Both the position numbers and the translations under genes were made by a program. Positions 10,829 to 16,391 of a DNA stretch of 34,909 bases are shown in pieces (position 1 is the stretch's first letter; every line of letters begins with the position of its first letter). The notes under the pieces were generated by a model that made no database searches, was not told the origin of the DNA, and saw only the letters and a list, made by a program, of their open reading frames with translations. Source of the stretch: Actinomycetes bacterium (lineage in GTDB: Bacteria > Actinomycetota > Acidimicrobiia > Acidimicrobiales > Bog-793); contig JAKACA010000017.1 of the NCBI GenBank assembly GCA_021796455.1, positions 1 through 34,909 of the forward strand. The letters are read 5' to 3'.

Positions 10829-11506
10829 CTATCCCATGCGCGCGCGCCTTTGGATCGCCGCGACGTCATGCAAGGTGAGGGTCCGCCCTTCGATTGTCAG
10901 CCATCCAAGGCTGCGCAACTGCCGGAAACCCTTCACGACAGCCTCCCGCGACATACCTGACCACGCTGCTAGCTCTCCCTGGTGGAACGGAGCGGTCACC
11001 TCGGTCAGGTCTGCTTGCTCTTGCCCGTAACGGTTCGCGAGCTCGACGAGCGTCGCACACAGGCGGGCAAGGGTATCCATCGTCCCGAACTCCAGCTGGC
11101 GGATCGACGCATCGCGCAAACGTGCCGCTACCAAGCGCAACAGCTCGGTGGCAAGCCTTGGGTGCTCCTCGAGCAACTCGTTGAACTCTTCATGAGTCGT
11201 GACTTCGACCTCCACCGGCTCGAGGGCGACCACCGTCGCAGAGCGCGGCGCCCCGTCGACCGCGCTCAACTCACCGAGGAGCGCGCCCTCGTCCAAGACT
11301 GCAAGGATCACCTCTCGCCCCGCGCGCCTAGAGCACACCTTGACCCGACCGGTCCGGACGACGAAGACCTCGTCAGCGGCATCACCCTCGCGAAAAAGCG
11401 TCGCCCCGCGCTCGTAGCTCCTCCGCCGGCTCCGACGCTCGAGGCTTGAGGCCTCGGCGTCGGTCAGCCGGGAAAGAAAGCTGCGACTGTCCGCTCCAGC
11501 CGGCAC
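10829..11506 (-). CDS. Crp/Fnr-family transcriptional regulator
   Basis: A 225-residue regulator with an N-terminal cyclic-nucleotide-binding jelly roll (about residues 15-125) and a C-terminal winged helix (about 165-220: GELAAWSGMSREAVVKGFRQLRSLGW, split by a short gap from the dimer helix). The phosphate-binding cassette GELSAVDGAPRSATV has the Glu and Arg-Ser expected for cNMP binding. There is no Cys cluster of Fnr type, so cAMP or cGMP sensing, or ligand-free action, is likelier than oxygen sensing. The start is GTG 11506 with only a weak ribosome-binding site. It follows the double-glycine peptide gene by 82 bases on the same strand, and the exporter upstream also carries cNMP-binding domains. 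Confidence 0.92.
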   Translation of the reverse strand: MPAGADSRSFLSRLTDAEASSLERRSRRRSYERGATLFREGDAADEVFVVRTGRVKVCSRRAGREVILAVLDEGALLGELSAVDGAPRSATVVALEPVEVEVTTHEEFNELLEEHPRLATELLRLVAARLRDASIRQLEFGTMDTLARLCATLVELANRYGQEQADLTEVTAPFHQGELAAWSGMSREAVVKGFRQLRSLGWLTIEGRTLTLHDVAAIQRRARMG

Positions 11507-11588
11507 CTGGATCCCGCAACCATCACCTAGCGAAAAGTGAACTCAGTGCGCTTATTGAGGACTGTCCGCTCCGACTCGCTCCTCACCC

Positions 11589-11768
11589 TCAGCGACCACT
11601 CCCCCAAGCGTTTCCGGTCCCTTCGCGCTTTGCGATGTCGCGCCGCAACTCACGCTTCTCGATCATCGCGAAGCCACCGGCCACCTGCGAAGCGGTCTCG
11701 TCGTCGACGGCGAGGTCGCCGTCGAGCTCTGTCTCGTCAAGGCCTGTCTCGATGTTCTCTTTGGTCAT
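11589..11768 (-). CDS. Double-glycine leader precursor peptide, 59 aa (putative bacteriocin or signal)
   Basis: A 59-residue peptide not previously obvious because of its size. The leader is acidic and ends ELDGDLAVDDETASQVAGG at Gly31-Gly32. It matches the double-glycine pattern read by C39 peptidases: Val at -12, Glu at -9, Ala at -7, Val at -4 and GG at -2/-1. Cleavage would release a 27-residue basic core that begins FAMIEKRELRRDIAKRE and ends GNAWGSGR. The core has no Cys, and no lanthipeptide, YcaO or radical-SAM enzyme is nearby, so an unmodified peptide is likely. ATG 11768 has a strong GGAGGAGGAG ribosome-binding site. It lies downstream of a C39-peptidase exporter and a PpiC-like protein on the same strand. 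Bioactivity is inference. Confidence 0.8.
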   Translation of the reverse strand: MTKENIETGLDETELDGDLAVDDETASQVAGGFAMIEKRELRRDIAKREGTGNAWGSGR

Positions 11769-11812
11769 CTCGTTCTCCTCCTCCGTGGTCCCGTTTCCTG
11801 CGGACTGTGCTC

Positions 11813-11841
11813 ATAGTAAAGATGGAGCGACCGCTTGCGAA
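11813..11841 (-). promoter_or_regulatory. Candidate promoter for the double-glycine peptide gene
   Basis: On the minus strand TTCGCA (11841-11836) and TACTAT (11818-11813) are separated by 17 bases, giving a sigma70-like -35/-10 pair with four matches in each box. The predicted start lies about 35 bases upstream of ATG 11768. It suggests the peptide is transcribed independently of the exporter, a usual arrangement where peptide must outnumber transporter. Confidence 0.35.
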
Positions 11842-11892
11842 GCCCCCAACACTGAGTACGTGTACCACCTCCGGGAGCTGCCGCCCCGTCAG

Positions 11893-11971
11893 GCCGGCGG
11901 GCGGGGGCGGCCGGACGGGCGAGCCGGCGAGCCGGACGGGCGAGCCGGCGGGCGGGGGCGGCCGGACGGGC
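11893..11971. repeat. GC-rich direct repeat block
   Basis: A 28-base unit starting gccggcgggcgggggcggcc occurs exactly twice (11893-11920 and 11944-11971), with shorter gccggacgggcgagccggc pieces between. The block is almost all G and C on the plus strand (C-rich on the other), within the 400-base space (11769-12168) between exporter and peptide genes. No gene is supported there: apparent Pro-rich translations are artefacts of the repeats. It could form stable structure in a read-through transcript and so attenuate it. Confidence 0.85.
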
Positions 11972-12026
11972 TGAGCCCCGGAGAAAGCCAACTGTGTGCC
12001 GAGAGTACCCGGACACCCCCCTCCCC

Positions 12027-12184
12027 GGTCACCTGAGGCACAAGGTTGCTCGCACAACTATCCAGGCACCGGCGATTCGGTCACTTGAGGCACGAGGTTG
12101 CCCGCACAACTATCCAGGCACCGGCGATCCGGTCACTTTGGGCACGAGGTTGCCAGAACGGCTACGCATCAGACATCGGCGATC
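12027..12184. repeat. 52-bp tandem repeat, three copies, at exporter 3' end
   Basis: Two close copies (12027-12078 and 12079-12130) and a third diverged copy from 12131 that runs into the last codons of the exporter. Shared blocks are ggtcac-ytgaggcacraggttgc, gcacaactatccaggcaccgg and cggcgat-yc. Each copy contains short self-complementary pieces (gttg...caac and accgg-cgat-ccggt) and stops in several frames, so it is non-coding. It may be an array of regulatory or structured elements, or a relic of serial duplication of the gene end. Confidence 0.88.
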
Positions 12185-15100
12185 CCGAGCTGCTGGCTGT
12201 ACAGGTAGAAATAGACGCCTTGGCGGGCGAGGAGCTCGTCGTGGGTGCCCTTCTCCACGAGCCGGCCCTTGTCGAGCACGACGATGACGTCGGCGTTGCG
12301 GATGGTGCTGAGGCGGTGAGCGACGACAAAGGCTGTGCGACCCTCCAGAAGCCTGTCGATGTTGGCCTTCACTTTTGCCTCCGACTCGGTGTCGAGCGAG
12401 CTCGTGGCCTCGTCGAACAGCAACACGGGCGGCCGGCGGTACAGCGCCCTCGCGATCGCGAGACGTTGTGCCTGGCCTCCCGAAAGTGGCAGTCCACGGT
12501 CTCCGACCGTGGTCTCGTACCCAAGCGGCAACCGCTCGACCAGCTCGACCAGATCGGCTATCTCCGCTGCCGCGCGTACCGCATCGAGATCGACCTCGGT
12601 CTCGCCGAGTGCGATGTTCTCAGCAATCGAGGCGGCAAAGACATAAGGCGCCTGCAGCACGAAACCCACCTGGCGCCTCAGCTCCCCGTACCGCAACGAC
12701 GTCGACTCGGTGCGGTCGTAGAAGATGGAGCCCGAGCTCGGCTCGATCAACCCGGCGAGCAGGCGCAACAGCGTGGTCTTCCCCGATCCAGACCGCCCGA
12801 CCACGGCGACCGTCGTGCCCGGCGCGACGTCCAGGTCGACGTCTGCCAGGATCGGCTCGTCGACGCCGGGAGGGCTGTAGGACACGTGGCGGAGCTGCAC
12901 ACGACCTTCGAGCGTCGGCACAGGCTCGAGCCCTGAGGTATCGGAGCCCTGCTCCGGCTCTTGGTCCAACACGTCGGCAATGCGGTTCAAGAGCACGGCC
13001 GATACCTGCACGTCGTCCCAAGCGTCGAGCAGCAGGACGAGCGGGCCGGTGATCATGAGCACGAGGACGGTGAATGCGACATAGCCGCCAACACTAAGAG
13101 CACCGACGTGCGCGAGAAGAGCGCCGAGAAAGACGAATAGCCCGTAAGTGAGAAGGGAGATGAGCTGGACGATCGATCCGTACCCTGCGACAACCCGGTA
13201 CGAAGTCGCGGTACGGCCCATCAATTCGCCAAAGGCACGGCGCAGCCGCCGACGCAGGCCGGCTTCGGTGCCGGTCGACTTGACCGTTTCGATGCCCTTC
13301 AACAGGTCGATCTGATCAGCCGAGTACCGGCCGAAGCTCTCCTCGATGCTGGCATAAAGTGGGCGCAAACGCCGCGTCGAGTACCTCATCGCCATCAAGT
13401 AGACCGGGATGACAGCGAGGAATACGAGGGTCAGGACCCACGACAGGGCAAACAGAATGCCTACCCCCACGATTACCTGGGCCGCTGCCGACAGGCTCTG
13501 GATACCCTGCTGCACCACGACACGGCGCACTTCTCGCACTCCCATGAGGCGCCGCTCGATGTCGCCTACCCGGCGGCTGACGAAATAGGACATGGGCAGG
13601 CCGAGCAGGCGCTCGGTCATGAAGTCGAGCGTGTCACTGTCGAAGCTGACAGTTGCACCTACGAGCACCAGGCGCTGGAAGAGGGACGCGGCCGTCCCGG
13701 CAACAACGAGCCCGAGGATGCCGAGGCCGAGCAGGTCGATGGCCGAAGCGGAGCCCCGCGTCACCACGTCGTTCACGATTGCCTGGACGACGAGAGGCAG
13801 CGCCACTTCGCCCGCGGCGCCACCAAGGGCAAGCAGGAGAGCGACCGACAGCGCCCGCCGGTGCGCAAGCAGGAAAGGACGCAGCCAGCCCAGGTTCGGA
13901 GCGCTCTTCGGGAGATCGACCACGGCTCCGGTCGGGGTGACTTGCGCGCAGTACCCGTCCCAGTGGCTGACGAGCTCGCTCCGGGTGATCCGCACGACGC
14001 CGACGGCGGGGTCCGCTATCTCCGCACCGTGGGCGTCGAGACGAACGAGCACGACCCAGTGCCTCTTGTCCCAGTGGATGATCGCCGGGAGCTTGAGGTC
14101 CTCCAGGCGGTCCCGCGACGCCTTGAGCGCGGCGACGTCCAGTCCGATCCGCGCGCCGGCGCTCGCTAGTCCGCGGAGCGTCGTCCCCGCCACGCTCGTC
14201 CCTGCCACGTCGCGTAGCCACGAGGTCGAGACGTCGATCCCGTACCACTTCCCGATCATCGAGAGGCAGGCGACGCCGCAGTCCATCTCGTCGAGCTGGT
14301 GCACGAAGACGAACCGCTTGCGGCGCGAGGCCCTCGTCCGCGATGGCGCTGCGACAGCCTTCGCGGCCGGCTCCTCGGCCGGTGCCTCCTCGGCTTGTGC
14401 CACGTCGACGCGACCTGGCAGGATCTCCTCGCTAAAGTCAAGCGGCACACGGGCCTGGCTGCGAAAGTCCCGACCACGTGCCATCTCCTCGATTCGGTCG
14501 CCGAAGCCAGGAAAGCTGCGCGCCAACTCGTCGAAACCCGCCTTGTCGAGGGTTAGCAGCCTGGAGTCGCCAAGGGCGCGGACAGTCGCCACCCGAGCCT
14601 CCCCGGTCACGAGCGAACGCTCCCCGAATATGTCGCCCGTCCGCAGAAACCCGACCGCGTGCTTCTCGGATCCTTCCTGCCGGCTCGCCTCGAGGCGGCC
14701 GTCCTCGACGAAGTACATCGACCCACCCGGCGCACCCTCAGCTACGACGATCTCCCCCTTGGCCACCGCTACCGGCTTGAGGAGCCGGAACATCGCCGTC
14801 GCCGCCTGGAGCGACACCTCCTCGAATGCGGCATGGGTGCGGAGAAACCGATGGAGGCTCTGTACCCGTGCCTGGTCGCCGAACGCTCCCCTGACACCAG
14901 GATGCAGCTCCAAAAGCGAGTCGAAGACGAGCCGGTCGAGCCAGAGGGCGCGAACGGGCTGGGAGGCGCGCACTGTCGCGCTCCTGGTCGAGCCGTCGAG
15001 GAGAGATGTCTCGCCGAACCACTCTCCTGGACCGAGGCGCGCGATGGTCACCTCCTCGCCCTCGTGATCCACGAGAACCCGGACTGTGCCCTCTACGACC

Positions 15101-15336
15101 AGGTACATGCCGTCGGGCTGGTCTCCGGCAGAGAACACCGTTTCCCCGAACTCGAACGAGCGGGGCCGAAAGAGCCGGACGACCAGTGCCTCCAGAGCCG
15201 GGGGCAGGCTCGCGAGAAACGGCAGCGCTCTCAGCATCGCCTGCTCATCGCGCTCCCCGACCGGAGCGCCACTGGCACCGTCGCGGCCGCCAGTGCGCTC
15301 CATAGCCCCGGTGTCTTCTCCCAGGTCTGCGCTCAA
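12169..15336 (-). CDS. Peptidase-containing ABC exporter with two cNMP-binding domains (C39)
   Basis: A 1055-residue protein that would cleave double-glycine leaders and export the cores. Order of domains: cNMP-binding 1 (about 35-150; FGETSLLDGSTRSATV), cNMP-binding 2 (about 160-285; FGERSLVTGEARVATV), Ala/Glu-rich linker, C39 peptidase (340-470) with full triad Cys353 (DEMDCGVACLSMIG), His426 (KRHWVVL) and Asp442 (DPAVG), a six-helix exporter membrane domain (about 485-780), and an ATPase domain with Walker A GRSGSGKTT at 847-855, LSGGQ at 951-955, Walker B LLFDEATSS and His1007. Bacteriocin exporters such as LagD-type have only the C39-ABC part; cyanobacterial HetC-like proteins carry a cNMP-type domain. 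Start is TTG 15336, overlapping the PpiC-like stop as TTGA. Confidence 0.94.
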   Translation of the reverse strand: MSADLGEDTGAMERTGGRDGASGAPVGERDEQAMLRALPFLASLPPALEALVVRLFRPRSFEFGETVFSAGDQPDGMYLVVEGTVRVLVDHEGEEVTIARLGPGEWFGETSLLDGSTRSATVRASQPVRALWLDRLVFDSLLELHPGVRGAFGDQARVQSLHRFLRTHAAFEEVSLQAATAMFRLLKPVAVAKGEIVVAEGAPGGSMYFVEDGRLEASRQEGSEKHAVGFLRTGDIFGERSLVTGEARVATVRALGDSRLLTLDKAGFDELARSFPGFGDRIEEMARGRDFRSQARVPLDFSEEILPGRVDVAQAEEAPAEEPAAKAVAAPSRTRASRRKRFVFVHQLDEMDCGVACLSMIGKWYGIDVSTSWLRDVAGTSVAGTTLRGLASAGARIGLDVAALKASRDRLEDLKLPAIIHWDKRHWVVLVRLDAHGAEIADPAVGVVRITRSELVSHWDGYCAQVTPTGAVVDLPKSAPNLGWLRPFLLAHRRALSVALLLALGGAAGEVALPLVVQAIVNDVVTRGSASAIDLLGLGILGLVVAGTAASLFQRLVLVGATVSFDSDTLDFMTERLLGLPMSYFVSRRVGDIERRLMGVREVRRVVVQQGIQSLSAAAQVIVGVGILFALSWVLTLVFLAVIPVYLMAMRYSTRRLRPLYASIEESFGRYSADQIDLLKGIETVKSTGTEAGLRRRLRRAFGELMGRTATSYRVVAGYGSIVQLISLLTYGLFVFLGALLAHVGALSVGGYVAFTVLVLMITGPLVLLLDAWDDVQVSAVLLNRIADVLDQEPEQGSDTSGLEPVPTLEGRVQLRHVSYSPPGVDEPILADVDLDVAPGTTVAVVGRSGSGKTTLLRLLAGLIEPSSGSIFYDRTESTSLRYGELRRQVGFVLQAPYVFAASIAENIALGETEVDLDAVRAAAEIADLVELVERLPLGYETTVGDRGLPLSGGQAQRLAIARALYRRPPVLLFDEATSSLDTESEAKVKANIDRLLEGRTAFVVAHRLSTIRNADVIVVLDKGRLVEKGTHDELLARQGVYFYLYSQQLGIADV

Positions 15337-16391
15337 AGGGGGCCCACCCGGATCACCCGTCCCGCGAGAGCCCGGTCGAGCACCTCACCGAGGAGCTCGG
15401 ACCTCGCCTGAGCCCGGCTTTCGGGGTCGTCCGGCGAGGGAGGCCGGCGCGACTCGAGCCAGAGCACGTGGAAGCCGTCGGCGCTCTCGATCGGTCCAAG
15501 TGCCTCGCCCACGATCGCACCGCCCAGGAGCGCCGCCATCTTAGGAGCGAGCTGGTCCCGCCGAAGGTCCATGCGCAGCAGCTCACCACCTGCTCGCGTC
15601 GCTATCTCGCTTGGCTCCACTCCCTCGTCTCGCGAGCACATGACCGCCTCGTTCGCCGCGGAGCGGCTCGCCAGGCAGAGATCGTCGAACCTCACCCGCA
15701 TCCAGTCGACGGCGTGCTCGGCGACCCGCGCCGTGACGGCGGCCTCCGAGCCGAAGCGCTGCTCGACGTCCTCGAGAGCCCGCTCGCGCACCTTCAAGAG
15801 CTGCAGTTGCGACACGCACCACTGCAGCTCGAGCTCACCCACGACGCGCGCCCGCTCGACTATCTCCGTGGCCCTTGCCAGCTCGTCGGGGCTGTGGCCG
15901 TGACTGCTCACCACGGTCCGCTCTGCTCCGGTCACAGCGACAGCTGCCAAGTACCGCTCCAGCACGTGAGCAGCTTTGCCCCACCAGCCGTTGCAAGCGA
16001 GATCGACTCCCACGGCCTCGGCCAGCCCGTCGGGCGAGCTGGCCTGCTCCGGGACATCTACGGGCAGCCTCGCTGCGAGGACGCGGCGTAGGTGAGCCTC
16101 CCAGTCGGGGGTTTCGAGATGGCGCTGTGCCAGGAAGGACCTCAGGTCCTCGCCGCTCTGCAACTTCTTGCGCTGGCGGTACTCAACCGCCTCGACTCGA
16201 AGCTCCTCTCGGGTCGGAGATGAGATCCCGCTCTCGAGTACCTGCAGGCCACGCGTCGTCGCAGCTATGGCCGTGTCGAGGAGGCCGGTCGCGGCGCCCA
16301 CGAGCAGCAGCTCCCGGTACGTCACCGCCTCCTCCCCCACGCGCAGCGCAACGTCGTCGATCTCCGGCCACACCCGTGAAGTATCGCCCAA
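15333..16391 (-). CDS. PpiC/SurA-like peptidyl-prolyl isomerase-related protein (peptide maturation)
   Basis: A 352-residue protein with a helical N-terminal chaperone-like region (about 1-245, with SurA-like helices) and a C-terminal parvulin-related domain (about 250-345: GGELLRMDLRRDQLAPKMAAL, IVGEALGPIESADGFHVLWL). The parvulin fold seems reduced, and several catalytic His/Cys/Asp positions are not evident, so isomerase activity is doubtful. No signal peptide or membrane helix is seen, so it acts in the cytoplasm. PpiC-related proteins accompany C39 exporters in several putative peptide-maturation loci. Translational coupling to the exporter (TTGA) supports a role in folding or presenting the precursor. 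TTG 16391 lacks a clear ribosome-binding site; GTG 16373 is an alternative start. Confidence 0.78.
   Translation of the reverse strand: MGDTSRVWPEIDDVALRVGEEAVTYRELLLVGAATGLLDTAIAATTRGLQVLESGISSPTREELRVEAVEYRQRKKLQSGEDLRSFLAQRHLETPDWEAHLRRVLAARLPVDVPEQASSPDGLAEAVGVDLACNGWWGKAAHVLERYLAAVAVTGAERTVVSSHGHSPDELARATEIVERARVVGELELQWCVSQLQLLKVRERALEDVEQRFGSEAAVTARVAEHAVDWMRVRFDDLCLASRSAANEAVMCSRDEGVEPSEIATRAGGELLRMDLRRDQLAPKMAALLGGAIVGEALGPIESADGFHVLWLESRRPPSPDDPESRAQARSELLGEVLDRALAGRVIRVGPL

Follow-up and report, generated by a model that had tools for sequence, protein, structure and literature searches.

Exporters in which a cyclic-nucleotide-type domain precedes a C39 peptidase and an ABC transporter are an already known kind of system, represented by the cyanobacterial long-type clusters and by HetC. 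Our statements on published work follow excerpts of the reports cited. According to these, in groups I, II and VI of the cyanobacterial bacteriocin clusters a long-type CAP_ED-C39-ABC exporter is found together with SurA and HlyD (PMC3140520, Wang et al. 2011; PMC4558948). The cNMP domain of HetC is required in vivo, and the N-terminal part of the protein is protected by GDP, GTP and ppGpp and not by cAMP or 2-oxoglutarate, with a Kd for ppGpp of ~59 uM (PMC10986499). In the rosaritide cluster, the PpiC-type protein MirC, whose gene adjoins that of a peptidase-containing ABC transporter (PCAT), is required together with a graspetide synthetase for rosaritide biosynthesis, and parts of MirC are more like a SurA-type chaperone domain than a peptidyl-prolyl isomerase (PMC13097080). 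Here we describe a four-gene cassette of this general kind in an actinobacterium of the lineage Bog-793 (Acidimicrobiales). It lies on the minus strand of contig JAKACA010000017.1 of assembly GCA_021796455.1, which at its full length of 34,909 nucleotides is called the window below.

An initial interpretation of the window made from its letters alone (the sequence-only reading) had called the cassette an uncharacterised system for a secreted peptide. That word must be limited to the present branch, because the cyanobacterial clusters and HetC are in print. For the branch itself it stands: a literature search restricted to open-licence papers found no paper specific to the cassette.

The cassette and its precursor peptide

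The sequence-only reading had listed four consecutive minus-strand genes, a double-glycine leader, the peptidase residues of the exporter and a coupling of the first two genes. All four open reading frames (ORFs) are present, as are the leader and the residues Cys353, His426 and Asp442. The PpiC-like and exporter genes overlap by 4 nt. The features are as follows, with the evidence for each in brackets, where HMM stands for hidden Markov model.

15333-16391, minus strand: PpiC/SurA-like protein of 352 residues with a TTG start (ORF; Rotamase_2 at 3.7e-4, below the cut-off)
12169-15336, minus strand: cNMP-cNMP-C39-ABC exporter of 1055 residues (ORF, Pfam)
11589-11768, minus strand: double-glycine precursor peptide of 59 residues, with a leader of 32 and a core of 27 residues, no Cys (translation, conservation, leader HMM)
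11673-11768, minus strand: leader, ending in DLAVDDETASQVAGG, with a predicted C39 cut after GG (cut site from family knowledge)
11592-11672, minus strand: core peptide of 27 residues, hydrophilic, net charge +3, average mass 3105.5 Da (translation)
10829-11506, minus strand: Crp/Fnr-type regulator of 225 residues (cNMP_binding and HTH_Crp_2, Pfam)
12025-12164, no strand assigned: 36-nt unit in three copies at 52-nt spacing, between the exporter and peptide genes (repeat inspection)

The exporter has the architecture of a PCAT, with a C39 domain that carries Cys, His and Asp fused to an ABC membrane part and an ATPase, and with a double-glycine gene nearby. Pfam recognizes two cNMP_binding stretches (PF00027, 7.9e-46), Peptidase_C39 (3.3e-33), ABC_membrane and ABC_tran. 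The parts run from two cyclic-nucleotide-binding (CNB) domains, CNB1 (residues ~35-143) and CNB2 (~185-298), through the C39 domain (342-469) to the ABC membrane part (498-766) and the ATPase (830-979). Residues 337-1048 align with the solved PCAT 4ry2 at 3.7e-103. Gln347, Cys353, His426 and Asp442, which we take to be the catalytic residues of the C39 domain, are intact along with the ABC motifs, and the C39 and ABC motif residues are kept in all nine near homologues of the exporter, a set defined in the next section. Against the NHLP bacteriocin exporter model TIGR03796, the protein scores 441 bits, below the curated cut-off of 853.3 bits.

Among 35 genomes of the family, full-length exporter homologues occur in three: that of the window (G000) and two relatives from other genera, G009 (66% identity) and G031 (60%); we refer to these three loci as f1. 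Exporter matches in the remaining 32 genomes do not include the CNB part, and one match of the family search, in G017, spans exporter residues 319-1045 with the C39 region included. At the f1 loci, and hence in three genera, the four genes stand in identical order, and the 4-nt overlap is repeated in both relatives. The PpiC-like homologues in the same place are 41% (G009) and 37% (G031) identical to the window protein, and the Crp homologues 64% and 59%. Besides frames antisense to the cassette and general ABC ATPases, no further window ORF of at least 100 residues recurs on the G009 and G031 contigs (limits E 1e-8 and >60 bits). The G000 assembly consists of 334 contigs and is 93% complete, and the assemblies of the homologues are fragmented, so that contig ends hide genes.

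The peptide gene is preceded by GGAGGAGG ahead of its ATG. Conservation of the 59-codon frame in relatives with conserved flanks, which the sequence-only reading had made a test of its proposal, is found in G009 and G031, where the frame lies between the same neighbours. The leader is conserved as well: any two f1 loci agree at 12 of the 20 positions that precede the cut. In the core, 0-1 of the first 17 positions are identical in register. We scored the frame with leave-genome-out leader HMMs, in which a genome's own leaders are excluded from training (for the window, the G009 and G031 leaders are included). It ranks first among 323 window ORFs of 25-130 residues at E 4.7e-5, and the next ORF has an E-value of 4.0. 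As a control, 757 ORFs from 27 loci around other ABC exporters were scored with all nine leader models, and none reached 10 bits with any of them. When the three f1 precursors were combined into a profile, it hit each f1 genome at a single site. No second precursor of the family was seen elsewhere in G000, either at E 1 with the peptide as query or with this profile at E 0.1. At E 0.1 the window precursor has no match in Pfam or NCBIfam and is therefore neither NHLP nor N11P.

It seems appropriate to question whether so short a frame is simply a chance ORF beside an exporter that carries something else. The gene begins 400 nt downstream of the exporter, and an earlier model built from the leaders of G048, G063 and f100 only placed it at E 2.5, tied for fourth among 903 ORFs, which is not significant. 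However, the frame is kept in two other genera between the same neighbours, and its leave-genome-out E-value is 4.7e-5. We consequently rejected a chance origin, which we regard as very improbable indeed; judged by its conservation, the gene is real. C39 domains cut after a double glycine, and we regard export of the 59-residue peptide by the adjacent C39 exporter as likely.

C39 exporters paired with double-glycine precursors are also the layout of class II bacteriocins. The cassette might accordingly produce a classical, unmodified bacteriocin that kills related strains, with the Crp gene only adjusting expression. The patchy distribution of the full-length exporter (three of the 35 family genomes) and the unconserved core would suit such a role. 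However, membrane-active bacteriocins are unlike short hydrophilic cores, and the f1 cores are free of Cys, 17-27 residues long and hydrophilic, with a grand average of hydropathy between -0.88 and -1.24. Furthermore, the four genes recur alone, and no immunity gene was recognized among the ORFs scanned. A bacteriocin is therefore unlikely in our view, and the hydrophilic make-up of the core is the reason for regarding it as more signal-like than pore-forming. The window core (11592-11672) and the G031 core (L004:4832-4882), otherwise unlike, share E-K/H-RELR at differing positions.

Related exporter loci and the PpiC-like protein

The N-terminal half of the exporter was searched in samples of the order (397 genomes), the class (395), the phylum (396), the family of G1008 (35) and the class of G1008 (66), with limits of 1e-20 for the first three and 1e-40 for the last two. 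Matches were obtained in 5, 7, 7, 4 and 4 genomes, respectively; the samples overlap, and the first three include G000. Together with the family search, these samples gave nine full-length homologues (G000, G009, G031, G048, G063, G976, G1008, G1015 and G1048), the near homologues sharing 43-66% identity with the window exporter. Six weaker matches from the order, class and phylum samples, in G091, G567, G661, G662, G769 and G845 (E 8.5e-21 to 6.7e-29), were excluded from the nine, and a pattern scan of the 6.1-kb G662 contig found no leader gene.

The sequence-only reading had proposed one peptide system and had named the absence of double-glycine genes beside homologous exporters as grounds for dropping it. 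At least one significant leader gene lies near eight of the nine exporters by the leave-genome-out HMM, and the ninth locus (G1008) has a weak candidate. Given these leader genes and the recurrence of the four-gene cassette in three genera, the proposal of one peptide-export system is supported.

What varies among the loci is the company of modifying enzymes. LanB (PF04738) is encoded on the exporter contig in three of nine cases (G976, G1015 and G1048), LanC also in G1015 and G1048, with none seen on the 9.2-kb G976 contig, and G048 has LanB on a contig other than that of its exporter. No PF04738 match was obtained in G000, G009, G031, G063 or G1008. The graspetide synthetase model TIGR04187 reaches its cut-off in none of the nine genomes and has no match in G000, G009 and G031, other ATP-grasp classes not having been searched. 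The statement in the sequence-only reading that the locus lacks a modification enzyme and is not an ordinary lanthipeptide locus is supported, within what was searched, by the window scans, these two families and the Cys-less core. A lanthipeptide has Cys in its core and a Lan enzyme, whereas the window core has no Cys and G000 no PF04738 match (LanM/LANC_like were not searched genome-wide). The statement needs tempering in one respect: related exporters do sit in lanthipeptide-type loci.

Several of these loci have features of their own. At L139:3637-9166 (G976), L140:783-8344 (G1015) and L142:4534-11286 (G1048), several acidic double-glycine precursors surround LanB. Their cores are tiny, about 7-16 residues as read (for example TTFNCPTSH and TSLGCMTR), and most of those listed contain Thr or Ser and one Cys, some having no Cys. 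As judged from these residues, the loci fit candidate tiny class I lanthipeptides with one ring, cut by C39. In G1008 (L138:3251-5862), two glycosyltransferase-like genes, one above and one below the Pfam cut-off, lie between the double-glycine leader candidate and the exporter, and a glycosylated peptide is a possible product. In G063, whose genome has no LanB match, the core of the precursor at L127:7252-7458 contains CPGC and CNPGC and is possibly a metal-binding or disulfide peptide. At three of the nine loci the pump, the PpiC-like protein and the leader occur with LanB, and here they occur without it. The comparison suggests that these three components form a portable module that is used without LanB in the family of the window.

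These loci also raise the alternative that the window encodes a ribosomally synthesized and post-translationally modified peptide (RiPP) whose enzyme is unlinked, so that a modified core is exported and the PpiC-like protein partners the enzyme as MirC does MirB. The case for it lies in the related exporters that adjoin LanB (three of nine, on the same contig), LanC (two of nine) or glycosyltransferase-like genes (one of nine), in the LanB of G048 on a separate contig, and in the partnership of MirC with a modifying enzyme (PMC13097080). The case against it lies in the f1 genomes themselves, where PF04738 and TIGR04187 are both unmatched in all three, the cores have no Cys, and the Pfam scan of 25 further window ORFs shows no modifying enzyme. 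We consider an unlinked enzyme improbable, more so than a bacteriocin.

A PpiC-like gene adjoins eight of the nine exporters, and in the ninth (G1008) the contig ends 54 nt past the exporter. The PpiC-like identity given in the sequence-only reading reflects a real similarity, although one that is weak and diverged. Seven of the proteins (window, G009, G031, G048, G063, G1015 and G1048; the partial copy of G976 was left out) were compared with TIGR04500, the model for MirC-type partner proteins. It is the sole NCBIfam match in five of them, at 16-35 bits against a curated cut-off of 180 bits (E 0.0044 in G031, 5.9e-5 in G048, 3.4e-7 in G063, 1.1e-8 in G1015 and 1.6e-5 in G1048), and the window and G009 proteins have no match to it at E 1. 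A PpiC-like profile met solved structures weakly, at E 0.28 and 0.59, the second being a PpiC-type isomerase. Active parvulins carry His, Ile and Leu in one stretch. Read by eye, this stretch is RFDDL, RFDEL and EFELL in the three f1 proteins, among which only the window protein has the second parvulin His. The parvulin part of the window protein is therefore probably degenerate at the sequence level. By analogy, the protein is probably a chaperone or a partner protein, and a chaperone role as for MirC is the better guess. A search for the PpiC-like protein in plasmids gave no match.

Nucleotide-binding domains and the Crp-type regulator

The best sequence match of the CNB region is the Toxoplasma protein 9ya0 (5.5e-30), followed by regulatory subunits of PKA (6rsx, 1.4e-23). 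A model of the N-terminal half, built from five sequences with a mean predicted local distance difference test (pLDDT) score of 74.7, retrieves 749 PDB chains with E <=0.001, with PKA regulatory subunits and PKG at the head of the list. The TM-scores normalized by the model are low (~0.25-0.30), because the matches cover part of it.

The phosphate-binding cassette of CNB domains contains a Glu and an Arg, in a motif as in PKA and CRP. In CNB1 this pair (GE...R) is kept in all nine near homologues; in CNB2 the Glu is kept in nine of nine and the Arg in six of nine, the window included. In G000, the class III cyclase domain is matched four times above the cut-off, twice within a single frame. 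The CNB1 residues and the cyclase domains are compatible with nucleotide gating of the exporter, a possibility that the sequence-only reading had raised for export and transcription alike. Alternatively, the CNB domains may be inherited structural or dimerization modules that sense no ligand. Supporting this are the loss of the CNB1 Arg in four distant long-type exporters (L033, both L034 copies and L036; three records) and of the CNB2 Arg in three of the nine near ones. It is countered by the retention of the CNB1 Glu and Arg across the near homologues at exporter identities of 43-66%, by the CNB2 Arg kept in the two Sulfuritalea copies and by the in vivo requirement for the HetC domain (PMC10986499). 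Of all the alternatives, this one carries the most weight with us, though it remains short of probable. Given that HetC is stabilized by ppGpp and not by cAMP, cAMP should not be assumed to be the ligand of the exporter.

The regulator carries PF00027 and HTH_Crp_2. Its match to TIGR03896 (bacteriocin-type transport-associated protein) covers the CNB part only, at 38 bits against a cut-off of 161 bits. A separate Crp gene is seen only at the three f1 loci; tblastn of the stretches retrieved for the six remaining exporter loci revealed none. The start of the G031 homologue is uncertain, because no ATG, GTG or TTG precedes L004:5082 in its frame. In G009, an 18-nt inverted repeat, AGTATGAG-TG-CTCATACT (L003:1417-1434), lies 85-102 nt before the peptide gene and is a possible operator as judged from its symmetry; the best symmetric sites in G000 and G031 are weaker. 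In the window, a GC-rich repeat (11880-11971) adjoins the three 36-nt copies in the gap between exporter and peptide gene.

Proposed mechanism and comparison with known systems

We propose that the C39 domain binds the 59-residue precursor through its acidic leader and would cut it after Gly-Gly, and that the ABC part would then pump out the 27-residue core, as homology and leader conservation suggest. The PpiC-like protein, whose gene is coupled to that of the exporter through the 4-nt overlap, would most likely act as a non-catalytic chaperone that holds the precursor or hands it over. Through the tandem CNB domains, export most likely depends on an intracellular nucleotide, with CNB1 as the sensing site and CNB2 partly degenerate; cAMP, cGMP and other nucleotides, ppGpp among them, are possible ligands. 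Under the Crp regulator, expression of the four genes probably follows that signal or a related one, and the secreted core probably carries neither a lanthionine nor a graspetide modification. Taken as a whole, with nucleotide gating and an unmodified signal included, the chain is tentative and less likely than not. Its boldest form, a stand-alone signalling unit in which one nucleotide sets both transcription (through Crp) and processing and export (through a CNB pair like that of PKA regulatory subunits) of an unmodified, fast-evolving peptide, is doubtful.

Several observations weigh against this proposal. The Rotamase_2 match of the PpiC-like protein is weak and under the curated cut-off, and the single-sequence model of the protein is unusable (pLDDT 44). 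The interval of 400 nt, which contains a repeat, separates the peptide gene from the exporter. The f1 precursor profile finds only two of six distant genomes, weakly (0.006 and 0.014); the G1008 leader candidate ranks first among 35 ORFs without being significant (E 0.16; 4.1 bits versus 3.2 for the best control); and on the G031 contig an ORF that lacks GG scores 10.6 bits against the leader model of G031. The lack of a modifying enzyme applies to the 25 other window ORFs (Pfam), and genome-wide only LanB and TIGR04187 were searched. The CNB2 Arg is lost in G009, G031 and G048, and in the two Sulfuritalea exporters it is CNB2 that retains the Arg and CNB1 that has lost it. Finally, a common Crp operator before the peptide gene was sought in the three loci and rejected, none being significant (null fractions 0.52, 0.74 and 0.065).

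Even with these reservations, a probably nucleotide-sensing PCAT and its probable substrate are found in one short cassette, which may show how a small molecule gates peptide secretion. Because the exporter, leader and candidate core lie side by side, cutting, transport and gating can be tested with purified parts. For HetC, the identification of a substrate has been named as the next crucial step (PMC10986499). If the signalling unit exists, it would represent the core, free of enzymes, of a module in which a CNB-bearing PCAT, a PpiC-like protein and an acidic double-glycine leader are combined, and which is joined elsewhere to LanB and LanC or to glycosyltransferases.

The solved transporters closest to the C-terminal part are PCATs of the PCAT1 and ComA types (4ry2, 8hf7), which align end to end with exporter residues 337-1048 and have no CNB domain in the aligned chains. 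The PKA regulatory subunits (6rsx, 1rgs) possess tandem CNB domains like those of the exporter, where the pair is fused to a peptide exporter and no kinase is involved. The rosaritide cluster mirABCD shares with the window a PpiC-type protein, a PCAT and a precursor peptide (PMC13097080). However, mir has a graspetide synthetase, whereas G000 has no TIGR04187 match and the window PpiC-like protein no TIGR04500 match at E 1, and the excerpts of the rosaritide report mention no cNMP domain in MirD, whereas the window exporter has two.

HetC of Nostoc PCC 7120 and the window protein are both cNMP-C39-ABC exporters with catalytic residues, and HetC putatively exports a signal under nucleotide control (PMC10986499). 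HetC has one Pfam cNMP domain and the window exporter two; according to the same excerpts, no double-glycine gene was found near hetC, whereas the window cassette includes its precursor gene.

Aligned with two cyanobacterial and two Sulfuritalea relatives, the N-terminal half of the exporter shows only 21-27% identity. In Leptolyngbya boryana pLBY, an example of the cyanobacterial long-type kind, a peptidylprolyl isomerase, a PCAT and HlyD are annotated, and the exporter match spans window residues that include the CNB part. At L034:1398-9084, an HlyD gene separates two cNMP-cNMP-C39-ABC exporters of Sulfuritalea, the first of which has Ser at the Cys position of C39. A Leptolyngbyaceae long-type exporter (L036:5977-8976) has a degenerate C39 domain in which the Cys position is lost.

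With the cyanobacterial long-type clusters, as far as the excerpts describe them, the window shares an N-terminal CAP_ED/cNMP part before C39-ABC and a double-glycine precursor. Those clusters have SurA with a rotamase domain; the window protein has a Rotamase_2 match at 3.7e-4, below the cut-off. They also have HlyD, which was not seen in the Pfam scan of 25 further window ORFs, and their precursors are NHLP or N11P, whereas the window precursor belongs to neither family. The adjacent Crp gene also sets the window apart from them. What is new is a form of a known kind of system that, among the ORFs scanned, is free of modifying enzymes and of HlyD, with an acidic leader family and an adjacent Crp gene of its own.

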